A DNA stretch of 24,711 nucleotides. It comes from a virus. Within the stretch, counting starts at the first letter, position 1, and each line of letters starts with the position of its first letter. Positions 1-21,675 of the stretch are shown here, piece by piece. The stretch is taken from the IMG/VR virus record IMGVR_UViG_3300024262_000226, positions 1-24,711 of that record; one strand, written 5' to 3'. Position numbers and translations under genes: made by a program. The notes under the pieces are model-generated. The model was given only the letters and a program-made list of their open reading frames with translations, had not been told where the DNA came from and made no database searches.

Positions 1-1
1 G

Positions 2-526: not shown

Positions 527-542
527 AAATGAATAATTAATC

Positions 543-556
543 TATTTATATAAAAA
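543..556 (+). promoter_or_regulatory. Candidate late promoter or leader motif, first copy
   Basis: The 14-mer TATTTATATAAAAA lies 9 bases before the start codon at 566. The identical 14-mer lies before the gene at 12275, and a near copy lies before the gene at 23593. Its place before virion genes suggests a late promoter, but it could also be an A-rich translation initiation region, since no Shine-Dalgarno sequence is present. It is not the T4 late consensus in this orientation. Confidence 0.4.
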
Positions 557-565
557 TGGATTTGT

Positions 566-3500
566 ATGTCAAGTGAATTAACATTTAGTGCAACTGAAAA
601 CTTTAGGAAAAGACTTTTAGTAAGAAACTTAGAGCCATACGCCGAAGGGTATAAAGGTAACGATTCGCCTGGAAGCGCTGAGTTCGCACTTAATGATGTG
701 GCCGTACTTGATGCAATAAGGATTGAAGACTCACAGATTACCGACCAGGCACAAAAGAGGGCGTTTATACAAAATCAATACGGACCTGAAGGGGGATTTA
801 ACGATTTAATTAATATAAGAGATATAAGAAATAAAATTGAACAAAGAGAAACTTACTATACCTTTGTTGCTTCCACTTATAGTTCCCTTACCCTCCTTAC
901 AAGTTTTGACCCAATGGGGTCTAACGGAAGACTTAATCAAGACTCTACTTTAGCTCAGATAGCGGGTAAGTCACTAAAGACTCAGTTTGAATATAGAATC
1001 GCTGAAGAAACTTACCAACAAACATTAGGTAGGGTAAATATTTTAGACGCATTAGGAGACCCTTTTGACGCGTTAGCAATTGCAACAGGAAATGAACAAC
1101 TAATTGAAAGTGATTGGAAAATTTCAGTACCTAATAATGTTATAGGTAAAGGTCTTGATTTTTTAAGTAGGGTGTCCGGAATATATTCACCATATTCGTG
1201 GATACCTGGAAGTTATTTTAATGAGGTTCAACCACAATCAAGTATTAATCAGGCATCAGATGGAAGAGGTGAGTTTAGTGATAGAGGAACCCTACTACCA
1301 CAAGGTAATAAAAGAGCCTCCGAAACATTTTTAACTAGTACTGGTAGAGGACAAACAAAGAGATTGTTTAAAAATATTTCATTAAATGTATTTGCTCCTG
1401 ACTATACTGAAAACTCTCGAAGTTTTGGGTTAAGAGCCCCCGCAGGAAATTACTACGTAGGGAGTAAAGAGCAAGAGTTAACTGATATAGTTGCCCCTGC
1501 AGGCGAGTTACCCATAGACCAATTTGGTAATAAGGTAAGAACCGCAGTAAGGGGGTACGGTGAAATCGCCCAATTATATGAAACTAGAGACGCACCAAAC
1601 GTTTTTAAATTTGGATTAAATGGAAGTAGATTTTTAAGGTTTAGAACCAATACCAATAGTAGTTATGATGCCCCTAGACTACAAGGGGGATTTACATGGA
1701 CAAGTACCGACAGTAATGAAGCTGCTGGTAGATTTGTAAGTGAGGGTGGTGGATTACAGTCTATGGACACTAATTTTGAACAAGCGGTTAAATCTAGTTG
1801 GGATGGTACTGTTTCCACACAATATACCTTTACGAGAGGCTCTATATTAGACGACACACAAAGGTTAGTTGACGCAGCAGACCAATTAAATGGGGATGCT
1901 AGATTACAACACGTTGGTAATGCGATTAATCAAGTTTCTAAAGTTTTTAATGACGGAACTAGAGAAATGACTAAAGGGTCAAGGGTTTATAAGTATGAGG
2001 ACCAAACAACAGGTGAAATAAAAGGAATGGAGTATTGTAGAGTCTTCACTAAAGATATACCGTATTTTAGTAACGATGAGATACAAAAGAGTGAAGGTAT
2101 AACGACACAAAACCGAAGATTCTCCTACTCAATACTCGACAACACCTATAACTTAAATATCGCACCATGGAGAGATAACGAGTCCACAAATATCCAAGAT
2201 AATAAAGTAAAAAAGTATATGTTCTCAATTGAGAACTTAGCGTGGAGGACATCTAGTCGACCTGGATTTACATATCAAGATTTACCTCACTGTGAGCGAG
2301 GACCAAACAACGGTAGAATTATGTGGTTTCCACCTTATGATATGAAAGTGAATGAACAAAACTCTGCAAGTTGGACATCAAACGAATTTTTAGGTAGACC
2401 AGAACCAATATTTACATATAATAACACTACAAGAAACGGTTCATTAAGTTGGAAAATTGTAGTAGACCACCCATCAATTCTAAATGCAATTGTGGATAAA
2501 GAATTAGCTGGTGAAAACGCACAAAAGGTTAATGATATTGTTGATTCATTTTTTGCGGGTTGTAGAAAATACGATATATATGAGTTAGCTTCTAGATTTC
2601 CTCAGTTCACGTATAAAGATATTTACGATATTGTTACAGAAACTGAAAATATTACCGACTACGAATATTATAGTAACGAAATACAGAGCACTCAAATAAC
2701 GACAACAGACCCGGTAATTGAAGAATATACTCCCGTTATATCAGAAACGGACTATCAGTTTGAATTTTATTTCGATAATGACATACCTGGACCACAAAAC
2801 GCCAACTCAGTAACGACGAGTGAAAATTATTCAAATAGTTTACAAGAGTATATTAATCAAAAACCCCTCTATTTAATTTCTGCGGATGAAGACCAAAAAA
2901 CACCTGTAAGTAATTTTTTCGATAGTTTTATAGTTGGTACCTCAGGTAGAACACAGGAGTTGGCCGGTAAAATAAAAGAGGCTATTGATAAAGGAGCTAC
3001 GGTTAATATACAACTTCAGGGTTCGGCGTCATCGCCGAATAGTAATAATTATAATTTATCTCTATCAAAGAGAAGGGTCGATGCGATAAAAAAATATATA
3101 TTAAGTTTTTCTGACTTAAATAGACATACTGATAAATTAAATATTTCTGAAGTGTCTTCAGGTGAGAATGTTACTGTTACTCCTGGCGCGGGTTCGGGTC
3201 AAGAAATTAATTGTAGCGAGGGACTTACAGGGAATAATCAAATTTATTCTATAAGTGCTATGGGATGTAGAGCGGTTAGGTTTTCTACGACAATACAAGA
3301 GGTCCCACCAGAACCAAATCCTGAAGATTTAGAACCAATAATTGAGGAAACCATTATTACAAGTACTGTAACAGGAAAAACCGAGGTACAAAGGACAGTG
3401 GAAAGTAATGCGGTAAGACAAAAACAAAATGTGGCTAAAATAATAGTGAAAAAACTTTTAACTGAGTGCGATTACTTTAATATGATGAAAGAAGATTCAC

Positions 3501-5290: not shown

Positions 5291-5607
5291 TGAGGTATTA
5301 CGATAGATATCAAGAATTCTTATTAAATGGTAAGCAGACGGTTGTACCATACGTCACTATACCTCCTAAGCCGACAGATAAAAAGTTTATTTATAAAGTC
5401 GGACAAAGTAGATTAGACAAACTTAGTCAAGAATTTTATGATACCCCATATTTTGGATGGTTAATTTTAATGTCTAACCCACAATACGGAGGGTTAGAAA
5501 ATAATATTAGTGATGGTGCGGTTTTAATTATACCTTACCCCTTAGTGAATACATTGCAAGATTATAAAAAAGCATTAGACACACACTTCTTCTACTATGG
5601 CAGGTAA
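5290..5607 (+). CDS. gp53: LysM-like baseplate protein (gp53-type)
   Basis: This 105-aa protein has one compact LysM-like domain at about residues 33-83. It shows FIYKVGQSRLDKLSQEFY, then an aromatic YFGWLILMSNP, then ISDGAVLIIP, the usual pattern of a first strand, helix, Trp-containing helix and closing 'G..L.IP' strand. In T4, gp53 is a wedge protein with this fold; in simpler contractile tails and Afp/PVC-type particles a LysM protein joins tube and hub. Here it lies between the 1574-aa structural gene and the hub-like gene, as expected for such a connector. It is shorter than T4 gp53 (about 196 aa), so it is essentially the LysM domain plus short tails. Its ATG shares one base with the previous stop, and it overlaps the next gene by 11 bases, suggesting translational coupling. 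The LysM fold is well supported; gp53 rather than an Afp7-type equivalent is inference. Confidence 0.75.
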   Translation: MRYYDRYQEFLLNGKQTVVPYVTIPPKPTDKKFIYKVGQSRLDKLSQEFYDTPYFGWLILMSNPQYGGLENNISDGAVLIIPYPLVNTLQDYKKALDTHFFYYGR

Positions 5608-8600
5608 TAAATTCTTTAATAACCAAGACGTTTATGTGGAGACTGATTATGATAATATAATAATAGTCGACCCTAATAAAGTCGTTGATAGTGATGGTAA
5701 AGTATCCGAAAGGTTAGTTAATCATGAGGAATTGGTAATGTATGCTAGTTTAGAGGCTAAAGTGTTACCCAGAAGTAAATTAGTCTTAGGTAGTAATTTT
5801 GATGATACCATTCAAAATATTAGGGTAGGTGCGATAAATAGGGGTGGTACGGTTAATTTTATGAAGCCCCAAGTACAAGACACTGGTGATGGAGAGACTC
5901 AGGATAGTTATCTTGACACTTCTTGGACAGATAATTTAACTTTAGGTCAGACAAGAAGAGGTGATGTAGACTCACAACTATTAGGTATTAGTAATATCAG
6001 TGTCAAAATGAATGCATCCTTCAAGTCGTTCGTTACTATAGAAATGGAAGATGTGCAGGGTAGAGTTCTATTTGAACAAGGAGAGAACTCACCATATAGT
6101 GCGTTTTTTCAATATCCATACCCACTTTTCACTTTAGTATTAAAAGGTTATTACGGAAAGGCTATGAGATATGAGTTAATGTTAATAGATTTTAACGCTA
6201 GATTTGACCCTCAGTCCGGAAATTATAAAATAACTATAAACCTAATAACTAGAACGCACGCTCTATTGGCGGATATCCCAACCGAATGTTTATTCGCACT
6301 ACCCCATATGTACCCAAGGACCGTGACAATAGGGCCAAACAAAACGTCAACCCAAACTGGAGAGGGTACACAAGAAGTTAAGCAGATTAAAACGACTAAG
6401 GGTTACGACATGATAAAAAGTGTATACTCGTCATATAAAGCTAAAGGGTTGATAGATGAGAATTTTCCTGAATTAACATTAAATCAGATGTTAATGAAAA
6501 TGCAGAATTTTGAAAATTATGTAATGCAGGCTTATGGTAAGGAAGATATGTCGGCACTCAATGACATAGAAACGTATCTAAACACAATTAACGAATATAG
6601 AAATGACATATTTGGGAACTATACTGACAATTGGGAAACAAAAAATATAGATAAAAACTTAAAATTAATAACTAATATACCTAACGACCCTATACTTTAT
6701 TCATATAAAAAAGTTTTCTCAGCTCCTAAGGAAATATTAAACAATAAAGCTAATTCGATTTCTGAATTAGATGGTATAATTAAAAAATATAATAAACTTT
6801 TAAATGATAATACAACCTTTGGGACGAACGGACAAGCAACTATAGGTAAAGAAAAAATAGAAACTGCGTTATTTTGTGATGTAAAGATTTCGGACTTTAT
6901 ACAGGACAAACCTGAAATAGAGTACGTTGATATGCGAGCGACCTATGAGGTTAGAAATAACGGAACAGTCCCAAATGAAGTTGAATTATCCGATTTTAAA
7001 ATTAATGTAATTGGAAAAGAATTGGCGTTTCCTAATTACGAGGCTAACGCGGAAACTTTAGAGATTGAAGAAAGTACGTTATTAAATACGTACTTTATTT
7101 TTGGAGATACATTAAATAGCGTCAATCTTAAAAATAATACTTTTTTAGGTAAGTTAAAAAACTTAGAAGATAAATTCAAAAATAAGAGACAGATTATTGA
7201 AGAAAAATTATCTATCGCTTTGGCTGAAAAAATTGCTTCACCTGACGTTGGTTTAGGATTTAGACCCACAATACGAAATGTTGTTGCGGTTATATCTGCC
7301 TCTGCCGATGCGTTTTTAAGACTCATGGACGAAGTACACGATAAATCGTGGGAACAAAGAGAGAACCCTATAAGGGTTGGGGCGGTTATGTCTCCTGAAA
7401 AGTCTGAAGGAATTGAAACTACCCAAGTAAACGCACTATTGACAGGTTTGGCAAGTATGGGCTCAAGTTCAGATATACCTAAACCCGTTGTTTACCCATG
7501 GCCACAGTATTTTGTGGCTTCAGTGGACGAATCGGGTAATGAAATATATGAAGATAAATATCCTGGAGACCCCTCTGAGAGCGGTAAAATTCAAGGGTGG
7601 CTAACTGAGGTTTGGCCTGAAATACAATTTGTGGAAGAATTTATAAAAGGTTCTACAGAAAAAGAAGAAAGCAATTTAGATTACGACTATCCCAACACCT
7701 ATAAAGAAAATCCATATATTAGTTGTAACGCAATAGAGTTTCCGTTTGAAAACCAACCATACCGTAATTTAAGTGTTATACCTTTCTTATATGAGTTATA
7801 TGAGAGAACTTTTGTAAACTCTAACTACACTAAATTATTTCGGGAGGGGGGTTATAAAGATGAATTATACGCAGTATGTGCAGATTTCGAAAATATAAAT
7901 CTAAAAGAATCTGTAACAAAATCACCTGAGTTAATAGAATTACTTAAGAACTTTTCATTTAGTTATGAAAACTTATTAAAGTATATGAAAAGTATTTCCA
8001 ATAATGGACAGGGTGAATTTTGGAATCTTTTTGTGAGAGGTAATTATACTACACCATATTTAAAGTCATTAATTGATAGAGATTTTGGTGTATACAAAAT
8101 GTCATATTTGGACGGAAACTCGGTAAGTGTAGAAGCCTCTACTCAGAGCTCAGAAAAACTCACAAACTACATCAAGTCAAATCAATCCGACGAACTTACA
8201 TTTAGCGATGGATATCCATTTAATAACTTATCATGGTTACAAAAAAACATATCACAAGGTAGTTCCATAAGCTCAATACGACTAAGCAATGATACATCTA
8301 AGATGTTCTCATTTGATGAGAATAAAAAAACACTCGCGTCGTTTTCAAATGATGATGAGAGGTATGACAAAAAGATGTATAGTTACTTTGAGTGGACTAT
8401 GAATAAATCTACAAACCCAAATCAGGAAGTAAGTACCCTAGAAAGTAGTGTAAATTCTTCAGGGGATAATTCATTTAATACTAATGCTCAGGTTATTAAT
8501 TATTATAATAATAGAACTAAAGAGAAATTTGTTTTAACTGAATCAGTTTTAGATTATGGTGATGAATACGACACTACTAAAAATTTCATAACTAATTCAC

Positions 8601-11600
8601 AGACAACTTCATTATTAAACACGCCTTACTTTATTAATTCTATATTGAAGGGTGTTGAAAACGAAAAGAATAGTAATAAGGACCCTTATGTTGCTTTAGG
8701 TTACTTATACTTAAACTCATTACCGTTATCAACACTAAAGGAAAAATTTAAAAGTTATAACACTAATGTAACTACGGACTTAAATTATATTTTTGCGACT
8801 TTAAATAAGTTTGCCGCCATACATAAGATACCTTACTATTGGATATTAAAGTATGGGTCTATATGGTACAGATACAAAAAATATAAAAAAAATGGTGTAG
8901 ATATTTTAGACGATATTTGGAAAGACTTCGACTATAAAGAGGCTTATGACCCCATATCAAGTAACACCTCTAAGAGTTATACTTTTAATGGGTACGATAA
9001 TGAGTCGGTAACTATAAAACAATTAGAAGAAACTGAAGATACGGTTATTATTGATTTAGGTAGTGAGTTTTTACCGCCACAAGAACTGTTTGAAACTAAA
9101 ACATTTGAATTTTCGAGTGTACAAAACGGATTCTACCCGAAGGTTATGAACGACATCTACTACTATTTCACTAAAAAAGATGTTTTTACTGGGTACACCT
9201 CAAATGAGATAGTTAATGCCCAAACCAATAAAAATTTAAAAATAGGTAATTCAGTAAAAGGAAGTTTTAATCAGAATACGAATAGTGGTGATACCTTAAG
9301 TGAGTATAAAATGACTACTTGGTCACAATACTTTACTATAAAAGGAAATTATGATTTTAGAGAAAATCAAGAAGATAAATTACTAATTGTACCTTCATTC
9401 GGGGATGTAAAATTTAACCAATCAAAGTTCGAATGTTTTAATCAAATTGGAGGTCATAAACAAAATTTAATAACTAACCCATCCATTTATAATGGAGGTG
9501 TTAGGTCACTATGGTCTGCTCCGAACTACGGGTATTTCTCCAATGAAATGGTGGATAAGCCGACACCTAGTCAATATATTAAACATATAAATCCTGATGA
9601 CAGAAATGCTCAATCATTTAATTTAGGTAACGATACTACGGTTTCGTACTCATCTATTGATGATATATTCGGAGTGTTTACTGAGGAAATGTTAGATAAT
9701 TTTGAGACGTACTTTTTAAATTTCTGTCAAGTGGACAATAAATTTAATATCGACTTAGTAAATAGAGGAGGTGATACATTCACAGAATTTTTAAATAGTG
9801 ATGTAATAAAAAATCAATATAATGGAGATGAAATACCTGATACTGAGTTAAATAGGTTGAAGTCTTTATATGAGAATCAAGGAAGCGCATATAACGGAAT
9901 AGAATTAAGTGAATATGATTTAAACCTACCTAGAGTGATGAAAGAGTTATTTATGGTAGATTCTCCGACATTAACTGATAACATTGACCAAGATTTAAAA
10001 AGTATTAGTGATGCCCAAAGCTCAAGGTTTGTAAATTTCCATATTAGTGAGGCTTTAAATAGAGACGTAGTGTTAAAAATCGGTAATCCTGAAAAATATG
10101 ATAATAAAGTTTATGGTTCTATTACAACAGTAACAAATCAAAAAATTGAATCACCCTATGACTTTGGAAACTACATTAACAACTCCCTACCAACCCAAGG
10201 GGGAGCTGTAACACTAGGAGAAAGTATTGGTCTATACCCTGAAGCTTGGTCAGCAATGACAATAAATGTTGGGGAATTTAATGAGGATGGATTTAAATAT
10301 AGTGATAACGGTTCCTATCTTACTGACTTTTTTGTTGATATGGATTATGAGTTTACGGAAGATAATGTTAAAAAATTATCATCTCTAATTAAAATATATG
10401 CAGCTAAAAAAGGTCAAGATATTACTTACAATAAGTCGAACTTTATACAAGATTTAAACAAAAATCTTACAGAAAAAGAAGAGTTTCAAGAAAATGTTTT
10501 AAACAATATCTTCATTAAATTAAATCGAGACTTACCTTCAGTGGCAATAACTGACGACCCAACTAGGATATCTAAGATAGATGGAAACGTAATTAAATTA
10601 GATTTATGGAAATCATTTCAAACGTTAAACGATAAATGGATTTCGGGTCAAGACTTTAAAGAAAGAACAATTTTTGAGGACTTTTTATTTTTAGATAGGG
10701 CTAATAGACCGATAGGTAATAAAATAGATATAAATATAAAACAATTAGAGGGGCGATTTAGAAATCGAAACCCAAGACAAAATATATACGGATTATTTGG
10801 TTTTATATATGGTGATAATAATTTTACCTTTATGCCCACCCCCGCCTATACTAACTTTTATGGTAGAGATGAGAGAGTTAAAAATGGGTTGCCCGTTCCA
10901 CAGGATATACCTAATGATTTGTTCGGTACATTTATGGAGGTGGACACGAGAGATAGTAGACCTAGAGTTTTAGGTGTGTATCAAGGACAACCTTCTACAA
11001 AGTTAGGTATGGGTCAAAATACAAATATACGGGTTGGAGATGATTCATTCGATATAACAAACCCATCGGATTGTCCACTAAGAGAGAACCAACAGAATAA
11101 AACCGATTATTCGGACAGTAATAGATGTGTAGGGTTCCAAGTGGATTTCGGTAAAAGAAACCAAGGGGTTTTTAATTCAGTATCGATAGATATGGCCCAA
11201 CATAAAAATACCGCAGCATCGTACCAAGTGTTAGAAGAGTTAGGGTCACAAACTTCAGGTCAAAAAGTTGCGCAACAGACACAATCGTATTACGATATTT
11301 ACAGGTCCGCTAGTTATACCTGTCAGGTGCAGTCTTTAGGTAATGTTATGATTCAACCTACCATGTATTTTAATTTAACTAATGTTCCTATGTTTTATGG
11401 ACCATATCTTATTATGGATGTGAGTCATAATATTTCCTCAAGAGGATTTAGTACGTCCTTCCAAGGAACTAGAGTTCCTAAATTCTCCCTATCAACACCA
11501 AGTCAACTAGTTGCTAGTATTAATAGAAAAATATTAGATAGTTATAAGCAGAGGTTAAGACAAATAGAGAGTAACACTCCATCAGGACAAACAAATAACT

Positions 11601-12235
11601 CAATAGCTCTTGAAGATATAAAGAAAATTACTCAGGGTCCTGAGGATAAATGTCAAGAAATGACTAAATACCCAAATAAAGACTTTGTTAATATGTTACA
11701 GACGAACATAAAGGCACAAGACGTGATTGATTATCTTAATAGTGTAACATTTAATAGTGATAATATTAAATTATTTATATATGGTGTCGCAACTCAAAAT
11801 AAGGCTGTTAGACAAAATGTATATAATAATAATTTAACCAACTTATTTACTAACCGAGAAATAAAACCAGATAATAGAACAACCCTATTCAATTCACAAG
11901 CGTGTTTATCGGGAAATGAACAAGTCTTTCCGATTGCATCTTTTAATACTATAGAGGACTCATTAAACTTTATGAAAGAAACATATAACCCTTTTAGCGC
12001 GTGGTTAGATAGTATGGATACTATATTGCAACAAACACAAGTAAATGATGCGACACCTAAAACGTTAACGTACTTTTATATGTCTCAAATATATGAGATT
12101 GATAAAATAGAAGGAACTCCACAACAGGTAATATCTATTGTCGATAACAAAATGACAAACAATGATGTATATACGGATGAGTTTAATCAGTGGTTAGATA
12201 TATTCACTTCAGCTTTAAATAGAGGTGATATTTGA
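5597..12235 (+). CDS. Giant baseplate hub-like protein, 2212 aa
   Basis: The N-terminal part (residues about 128-240) has GISNISVKMNASFKSFVTIE, DVQGRVLFEQGENSPYSAFF and a LKGYYGKAMRYEL segment, a beta-rich pattern of large-phage hub-like proteins. Near the C-terminus, residues about 1904-1961 (SYTCQVQSLGNVMIQPTMYF, then FYGPYLIMDVSHNIS and GFSTSFQGTRVP) match the late-control-D/gp27/VgrG hub signature: 'lGN..i.P.m...l', '..G.Y.i..V.H.i', '.F.T...G.r'. Between them lie roughly 1650 residues rich in Asn, Tyr, Ser and Asp that I cannot assign. T4 gp27 is 391 aa, so this would be a hub with a huge insertion or a fusion of several baseplate proteins. The start ATG lies inside the LysM-like gene (11-base overlap). 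No Shine-Dalgarno sequence, signal peptide or membrane segment is seen. The hub role is inferred from two short signatures and gene order. Confidence 0.65.
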   Translation: MAGNKFFNNQDVYVETDYDNIIIVDPNKVVDSDGKVSERLVNHEELVMYASLEAKVLPRSKLVLGSNFDDTIQNIRVGAINRGGTVNFMKPQVQDTGDGETQDSYLDTSWTDNLTLGQTRRGDVDSQLLGISNISVKMNASFKSFVTIEMEDVQGRVLFEQGENSPYSAFFQYPYPLFTLVLKGYYGKAMRYELMLIDFNARFDPQSGNYKITINLITRTHALLADIPTECLFALPHMYPRTVTIGPNKTSTQTGEGTQEVKQIKTTKGYDMIKSVYSSYKAKGLIDENFPELTLNQMLMKMQNFENYVMQAYGKEDMSALNDIETYLNTINEYRNDIFGNYTDNWETKNIDKNLKLITNIPNDPILYSYKKVFSAPKEILNNKANSISELDGIIKKYNKLLNDNTTFGTNGQATIGKEKIETALFCDVKISDFIQDKPEIEYVDMRATYEVRNNGTVPNEVELSDFKINVIGKELAFPNYEANAETLEIEESTLLNTYFIFGDTLNSVNLKNNTFLGKLKNLEDKFKNKRQIIEEKLSIALAEKIASPDVGLGFRPTIRNVVAVISASADAFLRLMDEVHDKSWEQRENPIRVGAVMSPEKSEGIETTQVNALLTGLASMGSSSDIPKPVVYPWPQYFVASVDESGNEIYEDKYPGDPSESGKIQGWLTEVWPEIQFVEEFIKGSTEKEESNLDYDYPNTYKENPYISCNAIEFPFENQPYRNLSVIPFLYELYERTFVNSNYTKLFREGGYKDELYAVCADFENINLKESVTKSPELIELLKNFSFSYENLLKYMKSISNNGQGEFWNLFVRGNYTTPYLKSLIDRDFGVYKMSYLDGNSVSVEASTQSSEKLTNYIKSNQSDELTFSDGYPFNNLSWLQKNISQGSSISSIRLSNDTSKMFSFDENKKTLASFSNDDERYDKKMYSYFEWTMNKSTNPNQEVSTLESSVNSSGDNSFNTNAQVINYYNNRTKEKFVLTESVLDYGDEYDTTKNFITNSQTTSLLNTPYFINSILKGVENEKNSNKDPYVALGYLYLNSLPLSTLKEKFKSYNTNVTTDLNYIFATLNKFAAIHKIPYYWILKYGSIWYRYKKYKKNGVDILDDIWKDFDYKEAYDPISSNTSKSYTFNGYDNESVTIKQLEETEDTVIIDLGSEFLPPQELFETKTFEFSSVQNGFYPKVMNDIYYYFTKKDVFTGYTSNEIVNAQTNKNLKIGNSVKGSFNQNTNSGDTLSEYKMTTWSQYFTIKGNYDFRENQEDKLLIVPSFGDVKFNQSKFECFNQIGGHKQNLITNPSIYNGGVRSLWSAPNYGYFSNEMVDKPTPSQYIKHINPDDRNAQSFNLGNDTTVSYSSIDDIFGVFTEEMLDNFETYFLNFCQVDNKFNIDLVNRGGDTFTEFLNSDVIKNQYNGDEIPDTELNRLKSLYENQGSAYNGIELSEYDLNLPRVMKELFMVDSPTLTDNIDQDLKSISDAQSSRFVNFHISEALNRDVVLKIGNPEKYDNKVYGSITTVTNQKIESPYDFGNYINNSLPTQGGAVTLGESIGLYPEAWSAMTINVGEFNEDGFKYSDNGSYLTDFFVDMDYEFTEDNVKKLSSLIKIYAAKKGQDITYNKSNFIQDLNKNLTEKEEFQENVLNNIFIKLNRDLPSVAITDDPTRISKIDGNVIKLDLWKSFQTLNDKWISGQDFKERTIFEDFLFLDRANRPIGNKIDINIKQLEGRFRNRNPRQNIYGLFGFIYGDNNFTFMPTPAYTNFYGRDERVKNGLPVPQDIPNDLFGTFMEVDTRDSRPRVLGVYQGQPSTKLGMGQNTNIRVGDDSFDITNPSDCPLRENQQNKTDYSDSNRCVGFQVDFGKRNQGVFNSVSIDMAQHKNTAASYQVLEELGSQTSGQKVAQQTQSYYDIYRSASYTCQVQSLGNVMIQPTMYFNLTNVPMFYGPYLIMDVSHNISSRGFSTSFQGTRVPKFSLSTPSQLVASINRKILDSYKQRLRQIESNTPSGQTNNSIALEDIKKITQGPEDKCQEMTKYPNKDFVNMLQTNIKAQDVIDYLNSVTFNSDNIKLFIYGVATQNKAVRQNVYNNNLTNLFTNREIKPDNRTTLFNSQACLSGNEQVFPIASFNTIEDSLNFMKETYNPFSAWLDSMDTILQQTQVNDATPKTLTYFYMSQIYEIDKIEGTPQQVISIVDNKMTNNDVYTDEFNQWLDIFTSALNRGDI

Positions 12236-13271: not shown

Positions 13272-14123
13272 ATGGCAAACGCACTTGACGCAGTACTAGC
13301 ACAGTACGACAAAAACGTAACATCTCGCGGTAATGGAGATGGAATGACACAAGAAGAGAGGTTGAAAAAATACTTCACGACTTACCTACCTAAAGGGACT
13401 AAATCGGGACAATCTAGAGTCAGAATCCTACCAACACCTGATGGCTCATCACCTTTTAAAGAGGTGTGGTTCCATGAAGTACAAGTAGATGGTCGATGGG
13501 TTAAACTATACGACCCAGGTAAGAATGATGGGGAACGTTCTCCATTGACTGAGGTTTATGAAGAGTTGATGTCTACAGGTAAAGAGGCGGATAAGAAATT
13601 GGCGATGCAATATCGACCACGTAAGTTTTATATCGTCAAACTTATTGACCGAAACAACGAGGAGGATGGTATTAAATTTTGGAGGTTTAAAGACAACTAT
13701 AAGCAAGAAGGAATTCTCGACAAAATCATCCCAATTTGGAGAGCAAAGGGTGATGTAACTGACGCAAATGAAGGGAGAGACCTTATCATTGAACTTGTAA
13801 AGTCAAAAACTAATTCAGGGATTGAGTATACAGTTGTTCAAACAATCATGTACGATGACCCTATGGTGTTGTCTGAAGATAAGGGTACGATGAAAGATTG
13901 GATGGAAGATGAGATGACATGGTCTGACGTGTATGCTCAAAGACCTGTCGAATACTTGGAAGCGGTTGCTCGTGGGGAAACTCCTGTATGGGACTCAGAA
14001 CTTAAGAAGTTTGTTTATGGTGATAACACTACTGAGACTATTGGAGGTGAGAATAAAACAACTACAACAGAGGAAAAAGACCCGCAGTCGACTACTGAAG
14101 TCGATAGTGACCTTCCTTTCTAA
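13272..14123 (+). CDS. gp32: gp32-like single-stranded DNA-binding protein
   Basis: This 283-aa protein coats ssDNA during phage replication and recombination and organises the replisome. It follows the gp32 layout: a basic N-terminal segment (residues 1-45, for cooperative self-association in T4), an OB-fold core (about 46-225) with aromatic and basic strands (RVRILPTPDG, VWFHEV, RKFYIVKLIDR, KFWRFK), and a Thr/Glu-rich acidic tail (about 255-283). Two departures from T4 stand out. There is no cysteine at all, so the T4-type zinc site is absent; the segment that would hold it reads KLYDPGKNDGERSPL. The protein ends in DSDLPF, like bacterial SSB tips. The A-rich leader lacks a Shine-Dalgarno sequence. 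It is first in the cassette behind a strong promoter, and a hairpin separates it from uvsX, fitting the high amounts needed. The assignment is confident from pattern, size and the uvsX neighbour. Confidence 0.9.
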   Translation: MANALDAVLAQYDKNVTSRGNGDGMTQEERLKKYFTTYLPKGTKSGQSRVRILPTPDGSSPFKEVWFHEVQVDGRWVKLYDPGKNDGERSPLTEVYEELMSTGKEADKKLAMQYRPRKFYIVKLIDRNNEEDGIKFWRFKDNYKQEGILDKIIPIWRAKGDVTDANEGRDLIIELVKSKTNSGIEYTVVQTIMYDDPMVLSEDKGTMKDWMEDEMTWSDVYAQRPVEYLEAVARGETPVWDSELKKFVYGDNTTETIGGENKTTTTEEKDPQSTTEVDSDLPF

Positions 14124-14181: not shown

Positions 14182-15201
14182 ATGGCTATTAAAAAGAAAG
14201 ACTTTAAAGATATAAAGAAGAGATTTTCTTCTTCAGCAAAATTTAAACCACAGAGGTTTCACGACTTAGGTAAAGAATTTTTAGATGCGGTCGGGGTACC
14301 AGGTCCTGCTATCGGACATATTAATATGATGTTAGGTCACTCTGACACGGGAAAGACTACCGCGTTAGTTAAAGCGGCAGTTGACGCTCAGAAAAAAGGT
14401 GTACTACCAGTTTTTATTATTACAGAACAAAAGTGGTCTTTTGAACACGCAAAACTTATGGGGTTTGATTGTGAAGAAGTGGTTGATGAAGAAACTGGAG
14501 AACTTGATTGGGACGGATTCTTTATATTTAATAATGATTTTGAGTATATTGAGCAAATAACTTTATTTATAAATGAGTTATTGGACTCCCAAGAAAAGGG
14601 GGAGTTAGATTATGATTTATTATTTTTATGGGACTCAGTTGGTTCGGTACCTTGTAAGATGACCTATGAAGGTAAAGGAGGTAAACAACATAACGCGGCG
14701 GTACTTGCCGATAAAATCGGGATGGGAATAAACCAACGTATCTCAGGGTCTCGTAGGTCAGATTCAAAACATGAAAATACCCTACTTATTGTTAATCAAC
14801 CTTGGGTCGAACTTCCTGACAACCCTTTTAGTCAACCAAAAATTAAAGCGAAAGGAGGTGAAGCGATTTGGTTAAACTCATCACTTGTATTTTTGTTTGG
14901 TAATCAAAAAGGTGCGGGTACAAGTAAAATAACGGCGGTTAAAGATAAGAGAAAAGTAAAATTTGCAACTCGTACAAGAGTTTCAGTACTTAAAAACCAT
15001 ATTAATGGATTAGGATATGAGGACGGAAGAATCCTCGTAACCGCTCATGGGTTCTTAGCGGGTAAAGATGCGGCTGAGGAAAAAAAGTCTATTGAAGGAT
15101 ACAAATCCGAACAATCGGAATATTGGAAAGAAGTCATCGGAACAGGTGGTGACTTTAATCTTGAAGAAGATGGTGGAACCTTCGATATAAATGCGTTGTG
15201 A
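14182..15201 (+). CDS. uvsX: UvsX/RecA-type recombinase
   Basis: This 339-aa ATP-dependent strand-exchange protein drives recombination-dependent replication in T4-type phages together with gp32. Walker A is GHSDTGKTT (residues 52-60). A TEQ follows the second core strand (Glu82, the position of the RecA catalytic Glu). Walker B is LLFLWDS (146-152, Asp151), and the sensor strand reads LLIVNQPWVEL with Gln206. KAKGGEAIWLNSS (223-234) lies in the region of the second DNA-binding loop. The Walker A is closer to the normal GxxxxGKT form than the T4 UvsX version. The acidic C-terminus (LEEDGGTF) is typical of RecA-family tails. No Shine-Dalgarno sequence is present, only an A-run before the ATG. 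Its TGA overlaps the GTG start of the nuclease gene. RecA fold is certain; UvsX is chosen over bacterial RecA from size and gp32 adjacency. Confidence 0.92.
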   Translation: MAIKKKDFKDIKKRFSSSAKFKPQRFHDLGKEFLDAVGVPGPAIGHINMMLGHSDTGKTTALVKAAVDAQKKGVLPVFIITEQKWSFEHAKLMGFDCEEVVDEETGELDWDGFFIFNNDFEYIEQITLFINELLDSQEKGELDYDLLFLWDSVGSVPCKMTYEGKGGKQHNAAVLADKIGMGINQRISGSRRSDSKHENTLLIVNQPWVELPDNPFSQPKIKAKGGEAIWLNSSLVFLFGNQKGAGTSKITAVKDKRKVKFATRTRVSVLKNHINGLGYEDGRILVTAHGFLAGKDAAEEKKSIEGYKSEQSEYWKEVIGTGGDFNLEEDGGTFDINAL

Positions 15202-16211
15202 CCAAAACTTTATTAGTTGACGGGAATAACCTATTTAAAATTGGTTATCATGGGGTCCGCGAATATTATCATAAAGGTAACCATATAGGTGGTATATACC
15301 ATTTTGTGAATACCTTACGTAGGTTTATTGACGAATACAACTATGATAAGGTTATTGTTTTTTGGGATGGGGAAGATAATTCTATACAGAGAAAAAAGAT
15401 TTTTCCAGAATATAAAGAAAATAGAAGATATAATAGACTGAATGATATTCAGAAACAATCTTATAGTTGGCAACTAAAGAGAGTTAAAGAGTATTTGGAA
15501 GAGATGTTTATTCGACAAATTAATGTTGATGGTAATGAGGCGGATGATATGATAGCACAATACTGTCAAATTTCGGAAGATGAACACAAAACAATATTTT
15601 CGGCGGACAAAGACCTAACACAACTAATATGTGAAAAAGTCCAAGTCTACTCTCCGTCACAAAAACAAATGATTAAGAATGGGGATAAGGTTAAGTTAAG
15701 TAGTATTGAGATACCTCACCAAAACATAAGCACATTTAAAATTATATCGGGAGATAAGTCAGATAATATTGATGGTATTTATTATTTTGGGGAAAAAACA
15801 TTTGTAAAGTTATTTCCTGAAATTGTTGATTCTATAGTATCTGTTGACGATATTTTAACTAAAGGTGAACAATTACATGAAAACGATAAAGACAATAAGG
15901 CGTTACAAAACCTTCTTTCAGGTAAAACAAAAAGAGGGGTATACGGTGAAGAATTTTATTTAATTAATAGGAAGTTGGTAGATTTATCTATACCTTTGCT
16001 AACTGAAGAGGCAATAGAAATAGTCAAACTTTATTATGAAGAAGATATAGACCCTGAAGGTCGAGGTTATCAAAATCTAATGAGAATGATGATGGACGAT
16101 GGAATATTTAAGTATTTACCAAAAACAGACAATGCGTGGGTCTATTTCTTGACCCCTTTTATGAAACTAACAAGAAAAGAAAAACGAAGGTTTAAAAAAA
16201 CAAAAAATTAA
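15198..16211 (+). CDS. rnh: 5'-3' exonuclease / flap endonuclease (T4 RNase H type)
   Basis: This 337-aa nuclease of the FEN/PIN superfamily would remove RNA primers and 5' flaps during lagging-strand synthesis. The metal-binding acidic motifs occur in order: LLVDGNN (Asp8), VFWDGED (Asp57), DGNEADDMI (Glu114, Asp116, Asp117), SADKDLTQL (Asp137, Asp139) and SGDKSDNI (Asp186, Asp189). The last motif leads into the helix-hairpin-helix region. Size is close to T4 RNase H (305 aa). The C-terminus is strongly basic (KLTRKEKRRFKKTKN), probably for DNA contact. It starts with GTG, and the overlap GTGA with the uvsX stop suggests translational coupling; no in-frame ATG fits better, because the conserved LLVDGNN strand begins at residue 5. 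The family call is certain; rnh rather than another phage FEN is based on T4-type neighbours. Confidence 0.9.
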   Translation: MTKTLLVDGNNLFKIGYHGVREYYHKGNHIGGIYHFVNTLRRFIDEYNYDKVIVFWDGEDNSIQRKKIFPEYKENRRYNRLNDIQKQSYSWQLKRVKEYLEEMFIRQINVDGNEADDMIAQYCQISEDEHKTIFSADKDLTQLICEKVQVYSPSQKQMIKNGDKVKLSSIEIPHQNISTFKIISGDKSDNIDGIYYFGEKTFVKLFPEIVDSIVSVDDILTKGEQLHENDKDNKALQNLLSGKTKRGVYGEEFYLINRKLVDLSIPLLTEEAIEIVKLYYEEDIDPEGRGYQNLMRMMMDDGIFKYLPKTDNAWVYFLTPFMKLTRKEKRRFKKTKN

Positions 16212-16229: not shown

Positions 16230-16685
16230 ATGATTAAGGAAAAAAGTGATATGACTAAAATGGAGTTTCTTCTAACTCTTAATGATAACATTATCGTACA
16301 AAGATATTATAATGTTAAGGGTTATAATAAAGACGCTAAGAATAGTGTCGAGTTATACGATGCGGTTGATGAAATTCGTAATCAGATTCATCAAGACCTG
16401 AAGATGAAGACAATTACATATATGTTAGATAATCAGTTTCAGATTATGACAGACCAAAACATTATGGAGACTTCTATGACTGAAGATGAAGAAAGATTCA
16501 ACGTGTACATTAAACTTAATGATGATGTAATCTATCATATGATATGGGATGGAAAAATTTATCCACCTAAAGTGAGGTATACTGTCGATGTTCGTCCACA
16601 CTTAAAGTCTGTTTTGAAGTCTCTAACTGAGGTTTTTTCTACTGACAAATTGACACACGAATTTAACGGATATAATCTAATTTGA
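16230..16685 (+). CDS. Unknown protein inside the replication cassette, 151 aa
   Basis: I do not recognise the family. The protein has an N-terminal strand (FLLTLNDNIIVQRYYNV), a helix (SVELYDAVDEIRNQI), a region with many Met, Asp and Glu (residues about 65-90), then strands ending in VYIKLNDDVIYHMIWDGKIY. A final helix follows (HLKSVLKSLTEVF). There are no cysteines, Walker motifs or membrane segments. A second possible start, Met8 at 16251, is preceded by AAGGA at 16236-16240, one of the few Shine-Dalgarno-like sequences here, so the true product may be 144 aa. It lies 18 bases after the nuclease gene and 30 bases before the helicase gene. That position suggests a replication accessory role such as helicase loading or primase-helicase contact, but no sequence motif supports it. 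Confidence 0.75.
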   Translation: MIKEKSDMTKMEFLLTLNDNIIVQRYYNVKGYNKDAKNSVELYDAVDEIRNQIHQDLKMKTITYMLDNQFQIMTDQNIMETSMTEDEERFNVYIKLNDDVIYHMIWDGKIYPPKVRYTVDVRPHLKSVLKSLTEVFSTDKLTHEFNGYNLI

Positions 16686-16715: not shown

Positions 16716-18101
16716 ATGATAAGAATGTCAAATGAAAAAAATTTTGGTTATCTTGGGAATACCTTCCAGATACAACTACTTAATAATATCGTACTTTACA
16801 AGGATTTTGCGGCTTCTATAGTTGACGTTATTGAACCAAAATACTTCGACAATCAATATTTTAAATTGGTGATGCAGATTATTAAGGAGTATTATATAAA
16901 GTATGAGCATACACCCTCTTACAATACGTTAGAACAACTTGTTAAATCTGAAGTATCCTCACCTATGGCTCAAAAAATGGTGTTGGATATGGTAGAACAA
17001 GTCAAAGAAGCACCCGATGGAGGTGAGAGCTTTGTACAAGAGAAATCTTTAAAATTCTGTAAACAACAAGAACTACAAAAGGTTATGGTTAAGGCTCAAA
17101 AAATCATCGATAAGGGTGATTTTGAGAGTTACGACCACCTTGAGGAAATGGTCAGAGAGGCTCTACAGGTGGGGGAAATTGATGCGGGAACTGCAGACGT
17201 TTTTGCTAATCTTGACGATGTATTAGAAGAAGATTTTAGACATCCAATCCCTATGGGTATTGACGGAATAGACAATCTTTTAAAAGGTGGTATGGCTAAG
17301 GGTGAATTAGGTGTTATATTGGCACCTACTGGGGTTGGTAAATCTACACTACTTACAAAAATTTCTAACCATGCATTTAACTTAGGATATAACGTACTTC
17401 AAATATTTTTTGAAGATAATCCCAAAATTATTCAAAGGAAGCACATTACACTTTGGACTGAAATTGCTCCTGATTTACTTTCTTTACATAAAGATAAAGT
17501 CATGAAAAAAGTTCAGGATATTAAAGAAAATGCACCAAACAAGTTAATATTAAAAAAATTACCTTCTGATACGTTAACTATGAGTCAGATTAAAAATCAA
17601 ATTCGTAAAATGATAGCGGAGGGTAATAAACTTGATATGGTAGTTTTGGATTATATTGATTGTGTTGTTCCTGATAAAAATTTAGGTGATGAATGGAAAA
17701 GTGAGGGTTCGGTTATGAGAGGATTTGAGGCTATGTGTCACGAGTTAGACTTGGTTGGGTGGACAGCAACACAAGGTAATAGAAGTTCAATCTCTTCTGA
17801 AGTAGTGACCACAGACCAAATGGGAGGTTCAATTAAAAAGGCTCAGGTTGGTCACGTTATTATATCCGTAGCTAAATCTTTACAACAAAAAGAAATGAAC
17901 TTGGCAACTATTGCAATAACGAAATCCCGTATCGGTAAAGACGGTATTGTATTTGAAAACTGTAAGTTCGATAATGAGATGTTGGTTATAGATACCGAAC
18001 AAAGTGTTACTTTCTTAGGTTTAGAGGAACAGAAAGTAGAGAAGAATAAAGTAAGAATTAAGGAGCTCCTTGACAGAAGGCAGCAAAAGGAGACGAAATA
18101 A
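16716..18101 (+). CDS. gp41: DnaB-family replicative helicase (gp41-like)
   Basis: This 461-aa hexameric 5'-3' helicase unwinds DNA ahead of the phage replisome. The N-terminal helical domain (residues about 12-110) corresponds to the DnaB/gp41 N-domain used for primase and loader contacts. A linker follows, then a RecA-like core opening with the DnaB signature IPMGIDGIDNLLKGGMAKGE. Walker A is LAPTGVGKST (202-211), the catalytic Glu is probably Glu233 in FFEDNP, and Walker B is MVVLDYID (308-315, Asp312). Further on are TQGNR (352-356, Gln sensor) and KSRIGKDG (403-410) near the arginine-finger region. The length matches T4 gp41 (475 aa). Met4 at 16725 is an equally good start. No primase gene is adjacent in this window, and no primase domain is visible in this protein. 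Confidence 0.92.
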   Translation: MIRMSNEKNFGYLGNTFQIQLLNNIVLYKDFAASIVDVIEPKYFDNQYFKLVMQIIKEYYIKYEHTPSYNTLEQLVKSEVSSPMAQKMVLDMVEQVKEAPDGGESFVQEKSLKFCKQQELQKVMVKAQKIIDKGDFESYDHLEEMVREALQVGEIDAGTADVFANLDDVLEEDFRHPIPMGIDGIDNLLKGGMAKGELGVILAPTGVGKSTLLTKISNHAFNLGYNVLQIFFEDNPKIIQRKHITLWTEIAPDLLSLHKDKVMKKVQDIKENAPNKLILKKLPSDTLTMSQIKNQIRKMIAEGNKLDMVVLDYIDCVVPDKNLGDEWKSEGSVMRGFEAMCHELDLVGWTATQGNRSSISSEVVTTDQMGGSIKKAQVGHVIISVAKSLQQKEMNLATIAITKSRIGKDGIVFENCKFDNEMLVIDTEQSVTFLGLEEQKVEKNKVRIKELLDRRQQKETK

Positions 18102-18127: not shown

Positions 18128-19408
18128 ATGGAAAGTTTGATTGATAAGATTGAAAGAGATAATCGTTATGTAGTTAAGAGAAGTGGGGCTAAGGTCACAT
18201 TTAAACTTGAAAAAATGGAGAATGCCATTTTAAAAGCAATGAAGAGTATTGAAAAAGTGGACGAGGAGATGGCTGAGAAAATTGCAAGGTTATCCACAAA
18301 GGCTCTTTTTAGAAATAATAAAGATAGGGTTCCTCATGTCGATGAAATCCACGATATGGTGGAGAATAAATTAATGGATAACGGTCTAAATGATGTAGCT
18401 AAAGAATATATTATTTACCGTTCTAAAAGTAGACCAAACATCTTCTCAAAGAGAACCAACCTAAAACCCTATGAATACCCTAATTTAAACGAGTATGTTG
18501 ACGCTATTAGACATTCTTATTGGGTACATACTGAATTTAACTTTACTTCCGATATACAGGACTATAAGGTCCATTTAAATGAGGAAGAAAAATCCGCAGT
18601 AGAGAGAGCTATGTTAGCAATTTCACAAATTGAAATCGCGGTTAAATCTTTTTGGGGTGACATATATAAGAGAATGCCAAAACCTGAAATAGGTAATGTT
18701 GGAGCGACCTTCGCGGAATCAGAAGTTAGACACGCGGATGCATATTCACACCTAGTTCAACTGCTGGGATTAAACGGTGAATTTGAAAACTTACTTGAAG
18801 TTCCCGCGATTAGGAGAAGGATTAAATATTTAGAAAAATCTATAACAAACTCTAAAGCGGTAGAAAACAAAGAGTATTTTGAGTCTATTGTGTTGTTTTC
18901 TATGTTTATTGAGAACGTATCATTATTTTCTCAGTTTTTGGTTATTATGTCGTTTAATAAACATAAAAACAAATTAAAGGGAATAAGTAATGCCGTAGAA
19001 GCTACCTCTAAAGAGGAAAATATACACGCGGAATTCGGATTTGAGTTGGTCAATTTAATAAAAAGTGAAAACCCTGATTGGTGGACTGAAGAGTTGGTTG
19101 AAGACCTTATAATCTCTACTCAGGAGGCGTATGAGGCGGAAGAAGAAGTGGTAAATTGGATTTTTGAGAAAGGAGATTTAGATTTCCTAACTAAAAAACA
19201 AACATTGGAGTTTATTAAGAACAGATTTAACGTATCTTTAAATTCAATAGGTATTGATAGTATCTTTGAAGTTAACGATACTATATTAGAGACAACAGAA
19301 TGGTTTGACGATGAGATTTTAACTACAAAACATACGGACTTTTTTAATAAGAGAAGTATTAATTATAGTAAAAAGTCTAAATCAATTACATCAAACGATT
19401 TATTTTAA
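18128..19408 (+). CDS. nrdB: Class I ribonucleotide reductase small subunit with N-terminal ATP-cone
   Basis: The 426-aa radical-generating subunit works with the next gene to make dNTPs. The ferritin-like core carries a complete metal-ligand set by alignment to E. coli NrdB: Glu169, Glu199, His202, Glu262, Glu297, His300. The radical tyrosine is Tyr206 (ESEVRHADAY). The C-terminus ends in SNDLF, an acidic-aromatic tail of the type that docks on NrdA. The unusual part is the N-terminus: residues about 14-105 (YVVKRSGAKVTF, then HVDEIHDMVENKLM and VAKEYIIYRSK) are an ATP-cone, the nucleotide-binding on/off domain normally found on NrdA. Typical NrdB proteins are about 320-390 aa and lack it. 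Cone-bearing NrdB was characterised in the flavobacterium Leeuwenhoekiella blandensis. The gene sits 26 bases after the helicase gene and 16 bases before nrdA. Subunit identity is certain; the regulatory role is inferred from the family. Confidence 0.95.
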   Translation: MESLIDKIERDNRYVVKRSGAKVTFKLEKMENAILKAMKSIEKVDEEMAEKIARLSTKALFRNNKDRVPHVDEIHDMVENKLMDNGLNDVAKEYIIYRSKSRPNIFSKRTNLKPYEYPNLNEYVDAIRHSYWVHTEFNFTSDIQDYKVHLNEEEKSAVERAMLAISQIEIAVKSFWGDIYKRMPKPEIGNVGATFAESEVRHADAYSHLVQLLGLNGEFENLLEVPAIRRRIKYLEKSITNSKAVENKEYFESIVLFSMFIENVSLFSQFLVIMSFNKHKNKLKGISNAVEATSKEENIHAEFGFELVNLIKSENPDWWTEELVEDLIISTQEAYEAEEEVVNWIFEKGDLDFLTKKQTLEFIKNRFNVSLNSIGIDSIFEVNDTILETTEWFDDEILTTKHTDFFNKRSINYSKKSKSITSNDLF

Positions 19409-19424
19409 AAAGATATTATTAAAA

Positions 19425-21131
19425 ATGAAAAATAGAGAAAATTTCGACTGGATAAATGAGGAGTCCATTACTTTTCTTCGTAGAGGATACCTTAGTGAGG
19501 GAGAAGAGCCTTTAGATAGAATTAAAACTATCGCGGAACACGCTGAAAAGATTTTAGGTATTGATGGTTTTGCTGAAAAGTTTTACGACTATATGGGTAG
19601 AGGGTGGTATTCATTATCTTCTCCAGTATGGGCTAATTTTGGTAAAAAAAGAGGTTTACCTGTAAGTTGTTTTGGTTCTAATATTGGAGACAATATTGAA
19701 TCAATTCTTTACACACAAGCTGAGGTTGGTGAAATGAGTAAGATGGGAGGGGGAACATCAGGATACTTTGGAAACCTTAGAGGTAGAGGTGCTGAAATTA
19801 CAGATAATGGACATGCTCCAGGTGCGGTACACTTCATGAACTTATTCCAAAGTGTTGTGGATAATATATCCCAAGGTTCAACAAGAAGAGGTAGGTTTTC
19901 ACCGTATCTACCTGTTGAGCATCCAGATATTATGGAGTTTTTAGAGATTGGGACAGAAGGGTTCCCAATCCAAGATTTAACACATGCCGTTACCGTAAGT
20001 GATGAATTCATGAAGGAGATGGTTGAGGGTGATAGTGAAAAAAGGGATATTTGGGCAAAAATAATTCAGAGAAGAGGTGAAATTGGTTACCCTTATATTA
20101 TGTTCTCTGACACGATGAATAATAATGCTCCTGAAGTATATAGAGATAATAACGCAAAGATTTATAATTCTAATTTATGTTCTGAAATTGCGCTTCATAA
20201 CTCTGAAGAGGAGTCTTTTGTGTGTGTACTTTCATCTATGAATTTACTTCATTATGATGAGTGGAAAGATACCGACGCAGTTGAAACCATGACCTTTTTC
20301 TTGGACGCAATTGTTAGTGAATTTTTAACTAAGATTGAAAATATTAGAGATGAAGGAACTATAGAGGGTAGACGAGCATTTTTTTATTTAGAAAAGGCTT
20401 ATAATTTTGCTAAAAGACAAAGAGCGTTAGGTTTAGGTGTTTTAGGGTGGCACTCCCTACTACAATCAAAAAATTTACCTTTCGATTCTAAAGATTCCTC
20501 AAAATTAAATATTGAAGTTTTTAAGTTAATAAAAGATAAGTCTTATAAGGCATCATCAGAGCTCGCTGAGATGTTTGGAGAGCCAGAATATCTGAAAGGT
20601 TACGGAAGGAGAAATGTTACTCTAAACGCTATCGCTCCCACTACATCATCAGCATTTATATTAGGTCAAGTTTCACAGTCAATAGAGCCTATATGGTCTA
20701 ACTGTTATGTTAAAGATGTTGCTAAATTAAAAGTAACGATTAAAAATCCAATACTAAAGAAGTTATTAAGTGACTTAGGTAAAGACACTAAAGAAGTTTG
20801 GGATAGTATTAAGAAAAAGGATGGTTCCGCACAGCACTTAGATTTTTTAAGTGATGAACAAAAAGATGTGTTCAGAACATTTGCTGAGGTAAACCAATCG
20901 TCTATTATTAACCAAGCGGGGATAAGACAAGATTATATTGACCAATCACAATCTTTAAATTTAATGGTATCTCCTGATATGCCGACAAAAGATGTGAATA
21001 AGTTATTAATTGATGCATGGAAACTAGGGGTCAAAACTCTATATTACCAACACTCGATGAACTCAGCTCAGGCATTTGCAAGAAAAAAACTTAAACTTAA
21101 CGATTTACAATGTGTTGCTTGTGAAGGATAA
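19425..21131 (+). CDS. nrdA: Class I ribonucleotide reductase large subunit lacking an ATP-cone
   Basis: The 568-aa catalytic subunit reduces ribonucleotides. Active-site features are complete: Cys82 (PVSCFGSN) and Cys267 (ESFVCVLSS) as the redox pair, and Asn250, Cys252 and Glu254 (NLCSEIALH), where Cys252 is the thiyl radical site. Tyr540-Tyr541 (TLYYQHS) are the radical-transfer pair, and the C-terminal CVACEG holds the shuttle cysteines 563 and 566. GTSGYFGNLRGRG matches the phosphate/specificity-site loops. The protein opens almost directly on the catalytic domain (FLRRGYLSEGE at residues 17-27). The roughly 90-residue ATP-cone of E. coli or T4-type NrdA (about 750 aa) is absent, and the overall length is compact. 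The overall activity switch is therefore probably on NrdB. It is the last gene before the terminator at 21136-21165. The start has the AT-rich TATTATTAAAA before ATG and no Shine-Dalgarno sequence. Confidence 0.95.
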   Translation: MKNRENFDWINEESITFLRRGYLSEGEEPLDRIKTIAEHAEKILGIDGFAEKFYDYMGRGWYSLSSPVWANFGKKRGLPVSCFGSNIGDNIESILYTQAEVGEMSKMGGGTSGYFGNLRGRGAEITDNGHAPGAVHFMNLFQSVVDNISQGSTRRGRFSPYLPVEHPDIMEFLEIGTEGFPIQDLTHAVTVSDEFMKEMVEGDSEKRDIWAKIIQRRGEIGYPYIMFSDTMNNNAPEVYRDNNAKIYNSNLCSEIALHNSEEESFVCVLSSMNLLHYDEWKDTDAVETMTFFLDAIVSEFLTKIENIRDEGTIEGRRAFFYLEKAYNFAKRQRALGLGVLGWHSLLQSKNLPFDSKDSSKLNIEVFKLIKDKSYKASSELAEMFGEPEYLKGYGRRNVTLNAIAPTTSSAFILGQVSQSIEPIWSNCYVKDVAKLKVTIKNPILKKLLSDLGKDTKEVWDSIKKKDGSAQHLDFLSDEQKDVFRTFAEVNQSSIINQAGIRQDYIDQSQSLNLMVSPDMPTKDVNKLLIDAWKLGVKTLYYQHSMNSAQAFARKKLKLNDLQCVACEG

Positions 21132-21195: not shown

Positions 21196-21675
21196 ATGGC
21201 GATAAATAAAACATATGGTGTAAAATTTCCATTTACTGAAAGTGTTAATGGAAATTATCTGACTCTTACTAAAAGTGCTGAACAAGAGATAAGAACAGAC
21301 TTACTTCATTTAATATTAACTAGAAAAGGTAGTAGATATTACCTACCTGATTTTGGGACTAGAATATATGAATTTATTTTTGAACCTATGGACGGGCCAA
21401 CATTTGACGCTATAAAGGCAGACATACAAACATCAGTTGATAAGTATATTCCAAACTTACAGATTAATAATGTTTCAATAACACCTTATACTGATGAAGA
21501 TAAAGTTAGTGTCGAAGAGTTAAACACAGAAGACCAGAGTTCTGAATACGAGATGTTCGATATATTTAGAACTGCCGGTGAAGGTGTAAATGAATATACT
21601 GCTAAAGTAAAGATAGACTATTCCATTAAAGACACTACATTTGAAAGTAGAGATTTCATAATAATTAATATTTAA
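21196..21675 (+). CDS. gp25: Baseplate wedge protein, gp25/TssE family
   Basis: The 159-aa protein belongs to the gp25-like family, which in contractile tails sits at the inner baseplate and nucleates the sheath. The family core is clear: an early strand GVKFPF, then a helix EIRTDLLHLILTRKGSRYYL, PDFGTRIYEF and FEPMDG (residues 62-67). The last motif corresponds to the conserved EPR-type element. A helix (FDAIKADIQTSVDKYIP) and strands ending in IIINI close the fold. An acidic stretch at residues about 98-130 is an insertion compared with T4 gp25 (132 aa). It is followed after 5 bases by gp6, the same pairing as in many phage and injection-system clusters, so both are probably co-transcribed and made late. 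Confidence 0.92.
   Translation: MAINKTYGVKFPFTESVNGNYLTLTKSAEQEIRTDLLHLILTRKGSRYYLPDFGTRIYEFIFEPMDGPTFDAIKADIQTSVDKYIPNLQINNVSITPYTDEDKVSVEELNTEDQSSEYEMFDIFRTAGEGVNEYTAKVKIDYSIKDTTFESRDFIIINI

Follow-up and report, generated by a model that had tools for sequence, protein, structure and literature searches.

The closest described counterpart of the locus analysed here is the NrdAi/NrdBi ribonucleotide reductase (RNR) of Leeuwenhoekiella blandensis (5OLK; eLife 2018 e31529), for which a scheme has been established in which the enzyme is active as alpha2beta2 with ATP and unproductive in beta4-containing complexes with dATP (PMC5794259). The NrdB of Facklamia ignava (glutaredoxin-ATP cone-NrdBi; PMC6187632) is a second class Id protein with a cone before the core, encoded upstream of nrdA. 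The gene order beta before alpha is a published correlate of cones on beta (PMC9669993), and NrdAi subunits never bear a cone (PMC5794259). In phage T4, the cone of the class Ia NrdA binds dATP without inhibition (PMC3267527), and it has been argued (PMC9669993 among the sources) that the loss of the ATP-cone from viruses is favoured by compact genomes or by unchecked dNTP synthesis.

A cone on a phage NrdB is already known and is not novel. In a phage collection, 75 records matched at least 80% of the NrdB studied here at E<=1e-30, mostly from Staphylococcus phages, and the cone was present in the inspected Silviavirus, Baoshanvirus, Mammaliicoccus, Sporosarcina and Salicola phages; cone-bearing NrdB occurs in dozens of sequenced Staphylococcus phages, one Sporosarcina phage and one Salicola phage, while the few Rhizobium records among the 75 matches have no cone (L168). 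IMG/VR yielded 501 NrdB relatives, the nearest 80 of which are 85-92% identical and all cone-bearing. What the present analysis adds is a class assignment, a separate phage ancestry, a maintained cone and a short joint between cone and core.

We analysed a viral DNA stretch of 24,711 nucleotides (IMG/VR record IMGVR_UViG_3300024262_000226; "the window"). Its RNR resembles that of L. blandensis in the order of domains and of genes (beta before alpha), in the class Id metal site and in the fold and cone-cone contacts of the cone, with 58% identity in NrdB, but differs from it in a joint shorter by 4 residues, the lack of an Arg102 counterpart, the replacements Q72H and KRS for KRD, and its setting as a phage gene in a replication block. 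It shares class Id membership, a cone before the core and nrdB upstream of nrdA with F. ignava, but its NrdB has no glutaredoxin domain. Silviavirus Remus, Romulus and CF5, Baoshanvirus and Sporosarcina phage Lietuvens likewise have a class Id NrdB with an N-terminal cone and beta before alpha, but these proteins are 48-52% identical to the window NrdB, have a joint of 12 and keep Arg102 as bacteria do. Salicola phage SCTP-2 combines a cone with a joint of 8, as in the window, but its NrdB is 49% identical, has Lys at the contact Asp (L. blandensis position 73) and is paired with an intein-containing NrdA. Flavobacterium phage immuto_2-6A has the same order of genes (SSB, recombinase, exonuclease, DnaB, nrdB, nrdA), but its NrdB is cone-less, 33% identical and without the class Id Lys, and its NrdA is 44% identical. 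T4, finally, is also a phage with an ATP-cone on its RNR, but there the cone is on the catalytic subunit and the enzyme is not inhibited by dATP.

The gene pair, its class and its genomic setting

The nrdB gene (18128..19408, + strand; 426 aa) starts 26 bases behind a DnaB-like helicase gene and is followed after a gap of 16 bases by nrdA (19425..21131, +; 568 aa). A preliminary description of this DNA, made from the letters alone, had proposed that NrdB carries a full ATP-cone ahead of a complete radical core and that NrdA has none, and both statements were borne out. The HMM comparison of the NrdB N-terminus that it had suggested matched the ATP-cone family at residues 14-100 (PF03477, 18167..18427, +; 70.8 bits against a cut-off of 25.8, E=1.4e-19), and Ribonuc_red_sm was found at residues 109-383 (18452..19276, +; E=1.9e-56). 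In NrdA, Pfam found the all-alpha and barrel domains only, and a six-frame PF03477 search of the whole record found exactly one cone, at 18167-18427 in NrdB, and none on NrdA or elsewhere in the window. In eight related phage contigs (32-270 kb), PF03477 likewise detected exactly one cone per contig. The structure prediction suggested by the same description gave an AlphaFold2 model of NrdB (pLDDT 85) in which residues 14-100 fold as a beta-hairpin and four helices. The likeness to Leeuwenhoekiella that it had pointed out proved exact, as 5OLK is both the best PDB sequence match of NrdB (E=2.4e-157, residues 12-426) and the top solved match of the full model (Z 43.8, 387 residues, 3.6 A). For the core by itself, the fit to 6sf5 is 1.1 A across 296 residues; the larger whole-chain rmsd against 5OLK is consistent with a different cone angle, an angle that is unreliable in a single predicted chain.

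We assign the window enzyme to class Id (NrdAi/NrdBi; predicted Mn2 type), because the metal-site and signature residues match at all ten positions, NrdA scores above the class cut-off and the closest structures are of this class. The predicted metal ligands E169, E199, H202, E262, E297 and H300, the first of them a Glu, align to identical residues (E170...H301) of L. blandensis, and the signature residues K173, W176, Y206 and T293, with the Lys three residues ahead of the Trp, are identical in that species. NrdA reached 747.4 bits against NCBIfam TIGR02510 (cut-off 602.25), and its length of 568 aa compares with a class Id NrdA median of about 564 aa. In the PDB it is closest to the alpha chains 6dqx and 6dqw, which we take to be the structures of class Id alpha described by Rose et al. 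2019. The catalytic motifs of NrdA (SCFG, SNLCSEI, FVCVLSSMN, YYQHS and the C-terminal CVAC) align with 6dqx. The earlier proposal that both subunits are intact was supported. The ligands and the Lys, Trp, Tyr and Thr are published marks of class Id in L. blandensis, the Lys in the studied subgroup, with the Tyr held by the Thr (PMC6754362). As NrdAi never has a cone, the cone-less NrdA follows the rule of its class.

No glutaredoxin partner gene was found in the window; one is present in a 270-kb relative (G001). A Grx::cone::NrdB fusion was looked for by eye in the longer ORFs of five relatives (L021, L023, L038, L041 and L042), which contained no Grx sequence and look like upstream in-frame readings.

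The phage setting given in the preliminary description was also upheld. Upstream of nrdB lie genes for a gp32-like single-strand DNA-binding protein (13272..14123, +), a UvsX/RecA-like recombinase (14182..15201, +) and a 5'-3' exonuclease (15198..16211, +), followed by the DnaB-like replicative helicase (16716..18101, +), which directly precedes nrdB; it has this place also in Flavobacterium phage immuto and in 73/80 loci of related phages. An extra ORF between exonuclease and helicase (16230-16685) is not part of the immuto_2-6A order. The neighbours also include a baseplate J protein, and the gp25-like baseplate wedge gene beside the block (21196..21675, +) marks the genome as that of a tailed phage. 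For the helicase, baseplate J and terminase (the last taken from a related contig), immuto phages are among the closest cultured relatives at 26-28% identity, and the distant cultured relatives in this range are Flavobacterium and Microcystis phages; a Bacteroidetes host is plausible. Window positions 1-12000 had no DNA-level match to any sequenced phage. Two very long ORFs of the window, 566-5290 (1574 aa) and 5597-12235 (2212 aa), matched nothing in PHROGs; a weak OmpA-family hit (E=0.0013) was obtained for the first, and for the second the Pfam comparison covered the first 1134 aa.

The cone-core joint and a predicted nucleotide switch

Besides the class Id identity, the preliminary description had missed a phage-specific shortening of the joint between cone and core (residues 98-106, RSKSRPNIF; 18419..18445, +), which is 4 residues shorter than in bacterial NrdBi. 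Measured from the invariant Arg that ends the cone motif (L. blandensis Arg95) to the invariant Phe that opens the core (Phe107), it spans 12 steps in 85/85 bacterial cone-bearing sequences and in the Firmicute phages, versus 8 in the window, in 80/80 of its near relatives, in 18/20 further cone-bearing environmental phage sequences and in the Salicola phage. The claim applies to the bacterial set compared, which consisted of the 80 best matches and 22 sequences from a Bacteroidota sample.

The shortened stretch lies directly before the position of Arg102, the one residue through which the L. blandensis protein contacts the gamma-phosphates of dATP (PMC5794259). This Arg, the contact that we compared individually (the remaining dATP contacts are labelled in the source only in a figure), is invariant in 80 bacterial sequences, and the aligned phage position holds Asn, Arg, His or Ser; in the window its counterpart is absent, and the dATP-binding residue set is thus not fully kept. 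Gln72 is invariant in the 80 bacterial cones and is shared by P. aeruginosa NrdA and P. copri NrdD, whose cones bind two nucleotides; the short-joint group has His at this position. Directly behind the KR motif, 73/80 bacteria have Asp, and 80/80 of the nearest phage sequences have Ser, Thr or Asn. These changes suggest that the second nucleotide site is probably altered in the window's clade. The residues of the dATP-tetramer cone-cone contact (L. blandensis 73, 76, 80, 89, 92, 93 and 95), on the other hand, are all kept in the window (D76, E79, M83, K92, I95, I96 and R98) and in 80/80 of the nearest phage sequences, except that I93 is I in 56/80 and otherwise L or V, so the contact that would lock NrdB is likely retained in this clade. 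In other short-joint phages (L181-L191, L216, L246-L247), the contact Asp 73, which forms a cone-cone salt bridge in L. blandensis, is replaced by Lys, Arg or Thr in 18/20 sequences; because this salt-bridge residue is replaced, any oligomer formed by their NrdBs should differ.

We estimated selection on the cone from pairwise Nei-Gojobori comparisons within the phage clade. Because many pairs approach saturation at synonymous sites, the estimates use unsaturated pairs only, and they are approximate. Median dN/dS was about 0.07 for the cone and 0.035 for the core, and about 0.4 for the first 11 residues of NrdB, an unstructured tail. The purifying selection on the cone indicates that it is maintained for a function. 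Amino-acid change in the cone was 2.0 times that in the core in phages versus 2.7 times in bacteria, so that constraint on the cone is no weaker in the phages than in bacteria.

These results are consistent with a model in which a tailed phage carries, inside its replication gene block, a complete class Id RNR with a working switch of the L. blandensis type on NrdB, the shorter joint altering rather than abolishing the response to dATP. We give this reading a probability of roughly 0.65. The dimanganese site of NrdB would make the oxidant with which NrdA reduces ribonucleotides, and the cone of NrdB would read the ATP/dATP ratio: with ATP, NrdB dimers would pair with NrdA as active alpha2beta2, and with dATP, pairing of cones via helices 3 and 4 would trap NrdB in beta4-containing oligomers that are unproductive. 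A nucleotide switch is likely on the basis of the cone and core domains, the class Id assignment and metal site, the kept tetramer contacts, the low dN/dS of the cone and the gene order recurring in 73/80 loci; the short joint, the missing Arg102 counterpart, the change of Q72 to His, the replaced Asp after KR and the T4 precedent count against it. The dATP response itself, its strength and the proposal that the shorter joint alters without abolishing it are inferred. Our literature search found no biochemistry on these phage enzymes.

The main rival is that the cone still binds nucleotides, as in T4 NrdA, but no longer switches the enzyme off, serving instead ATP activation, assembly or stability while synthesis runs on in high dATP. 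Such a cone would fit the absence of Arg102 and of the Asp after KR and the change Q72H, and unchecked dNTP synthesis would benefit a lytic phage, an argument made for cyanophages that lost the cone. However, full retention of the dATP-tetramer contacts in the window's clade would be odd if ATP binding alone mattered, and the cone is constrained as much as its bacterial counterpart; we regard this alternative as unlikely. A variant of the switch reading, which we offer only tentatively and find somewhat doubtful, is that the window represents an old, separate branch of environmental phages in which the shortened joint and altered second site lead to fewer bound nucleotides, or to a different dATP trip level, than in the bacterial two-dATP switch.

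If this variant is true, the radical subunit of these phages carries a dNTP switch tuned to the phage. The small-subunit cone is kept under selection in a large group of phages, and it is absent from some phages that use this gene slot (immuto); with one enzyme pair it would thereby become possible to ask why a phage should restrict its own supply of dNTPs, and the short joint is a naturally occurring variant with which the two-dATP mechanism of the cone could be dissected.

Ancestry of the gene pair and origin of the cone

The preliminary description had also suggested acquisition from a Bacteroidetes host, and on this point the trees gave no support. On the NrdB core, a 73-row tree groups the window with its 80 nearest phage relatives (clustered to 13 rows) in a clade made up of phages only (100/99), and the cone-bearing Flavobacteriia form a separate one (100/96). 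In the NrdA tree the phage clade (100) joins other short-joint phages (SH-aLRT 90), with Bacteroidota apart (SH-aLRT 97), although long branches (L171, L260 and others) leave the deep branching of the trees unsure. The window sequence is not nested among Bacteroidetes on either the NrdB core or NrdA; its nearest cellular relatives are Flavobacteriia, at about 62% identity. Because the phage clade is separate on both subunits, recent capture from a Bacteroidetes host, in the simple form proposed, is not supported. One clade for all short-joint phages was compatible with the data on both the core (p=0.43) and the cone (p=0.57).

The phage lineage may have gained a cone of its own, perhaps taken from a phage class III reductase, in a fusion independent of the one that joined cone and NrdB in bacteria; this alternative concerns the origin of the cone and not its function. 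The different joint length would agree with such an event, as would a cone-only tree in which the cones with a short joint are intermingled with those of phage NrdD and the remaining NrdB cones are set apart (82/74), but that tree was built from 89 columns and a single origin of all NrdB cones was not rejected (AU p=0.28); a separate fusion seems to us rather improbable. That the cone is a passive leftover of recent flavobacterial gene capture is very hard to credit, since, even with Flavobacteriia as nearest cellular relatives and Flavobacterium phages among the cultured relatives of the helicase, baseplate protein and terminase (related contig), the cone evolves under far stronger constraint than the unstructured tail (dN/dS about 0.07 versus about 0.4), the phage clade stands apart from Flavobacteriia on both subunits, the joint is unlike every sampled bacterial joint, and where viral NrdBs do cluster with the bacterial clade (L173-L176), they have no cone.

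These four viral NrdBs are of class Id and are 72-74% identical to the Leeuwenhoekiella core; two (L173 and L174) group with Bacteroidota on both subunits and two (L175 and L176) on NrdB. They are likely host-to-phage transfers without a cone, and no cone decay products were seen in three frames upstream of cone-less viral nrdB genes (L173, L175 and others).

Several other arrangements of these domains were observed. The NrdA of Salicola phage SCTP-2 (L165 5300-7969; 889 aa) contains an intein-like splicing domain and a LAGLIDADG endonuclease domain, and the NrdAs of Staphylococcus phages CF5 and Remus (L162 5353-8080 and L167 5336-9236) are split around HNH or GIY-YIG homing endonuclease genes. 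Proteus phage Vb_PmiP-P59 encodes a lone 111-aa ATP-cone protein (NC_070975 54844-55179; L301 601-936; PF03477 E=3e-20, no other domain), which is annotated as an anaerobic ribonucleotide reductase and overlaps the end of a dps-like gene; matches to this protein were also found in Proteus phages Privateer and 3H10_20 and in Cronobacter phage vB_CsaP_009. In a Bacteroidota genome (G259, contig C65 6566-7528; L274), a single 933-codon frame fuses a cone-less NrdB to NrdA as a class Id beta-alpha protein.
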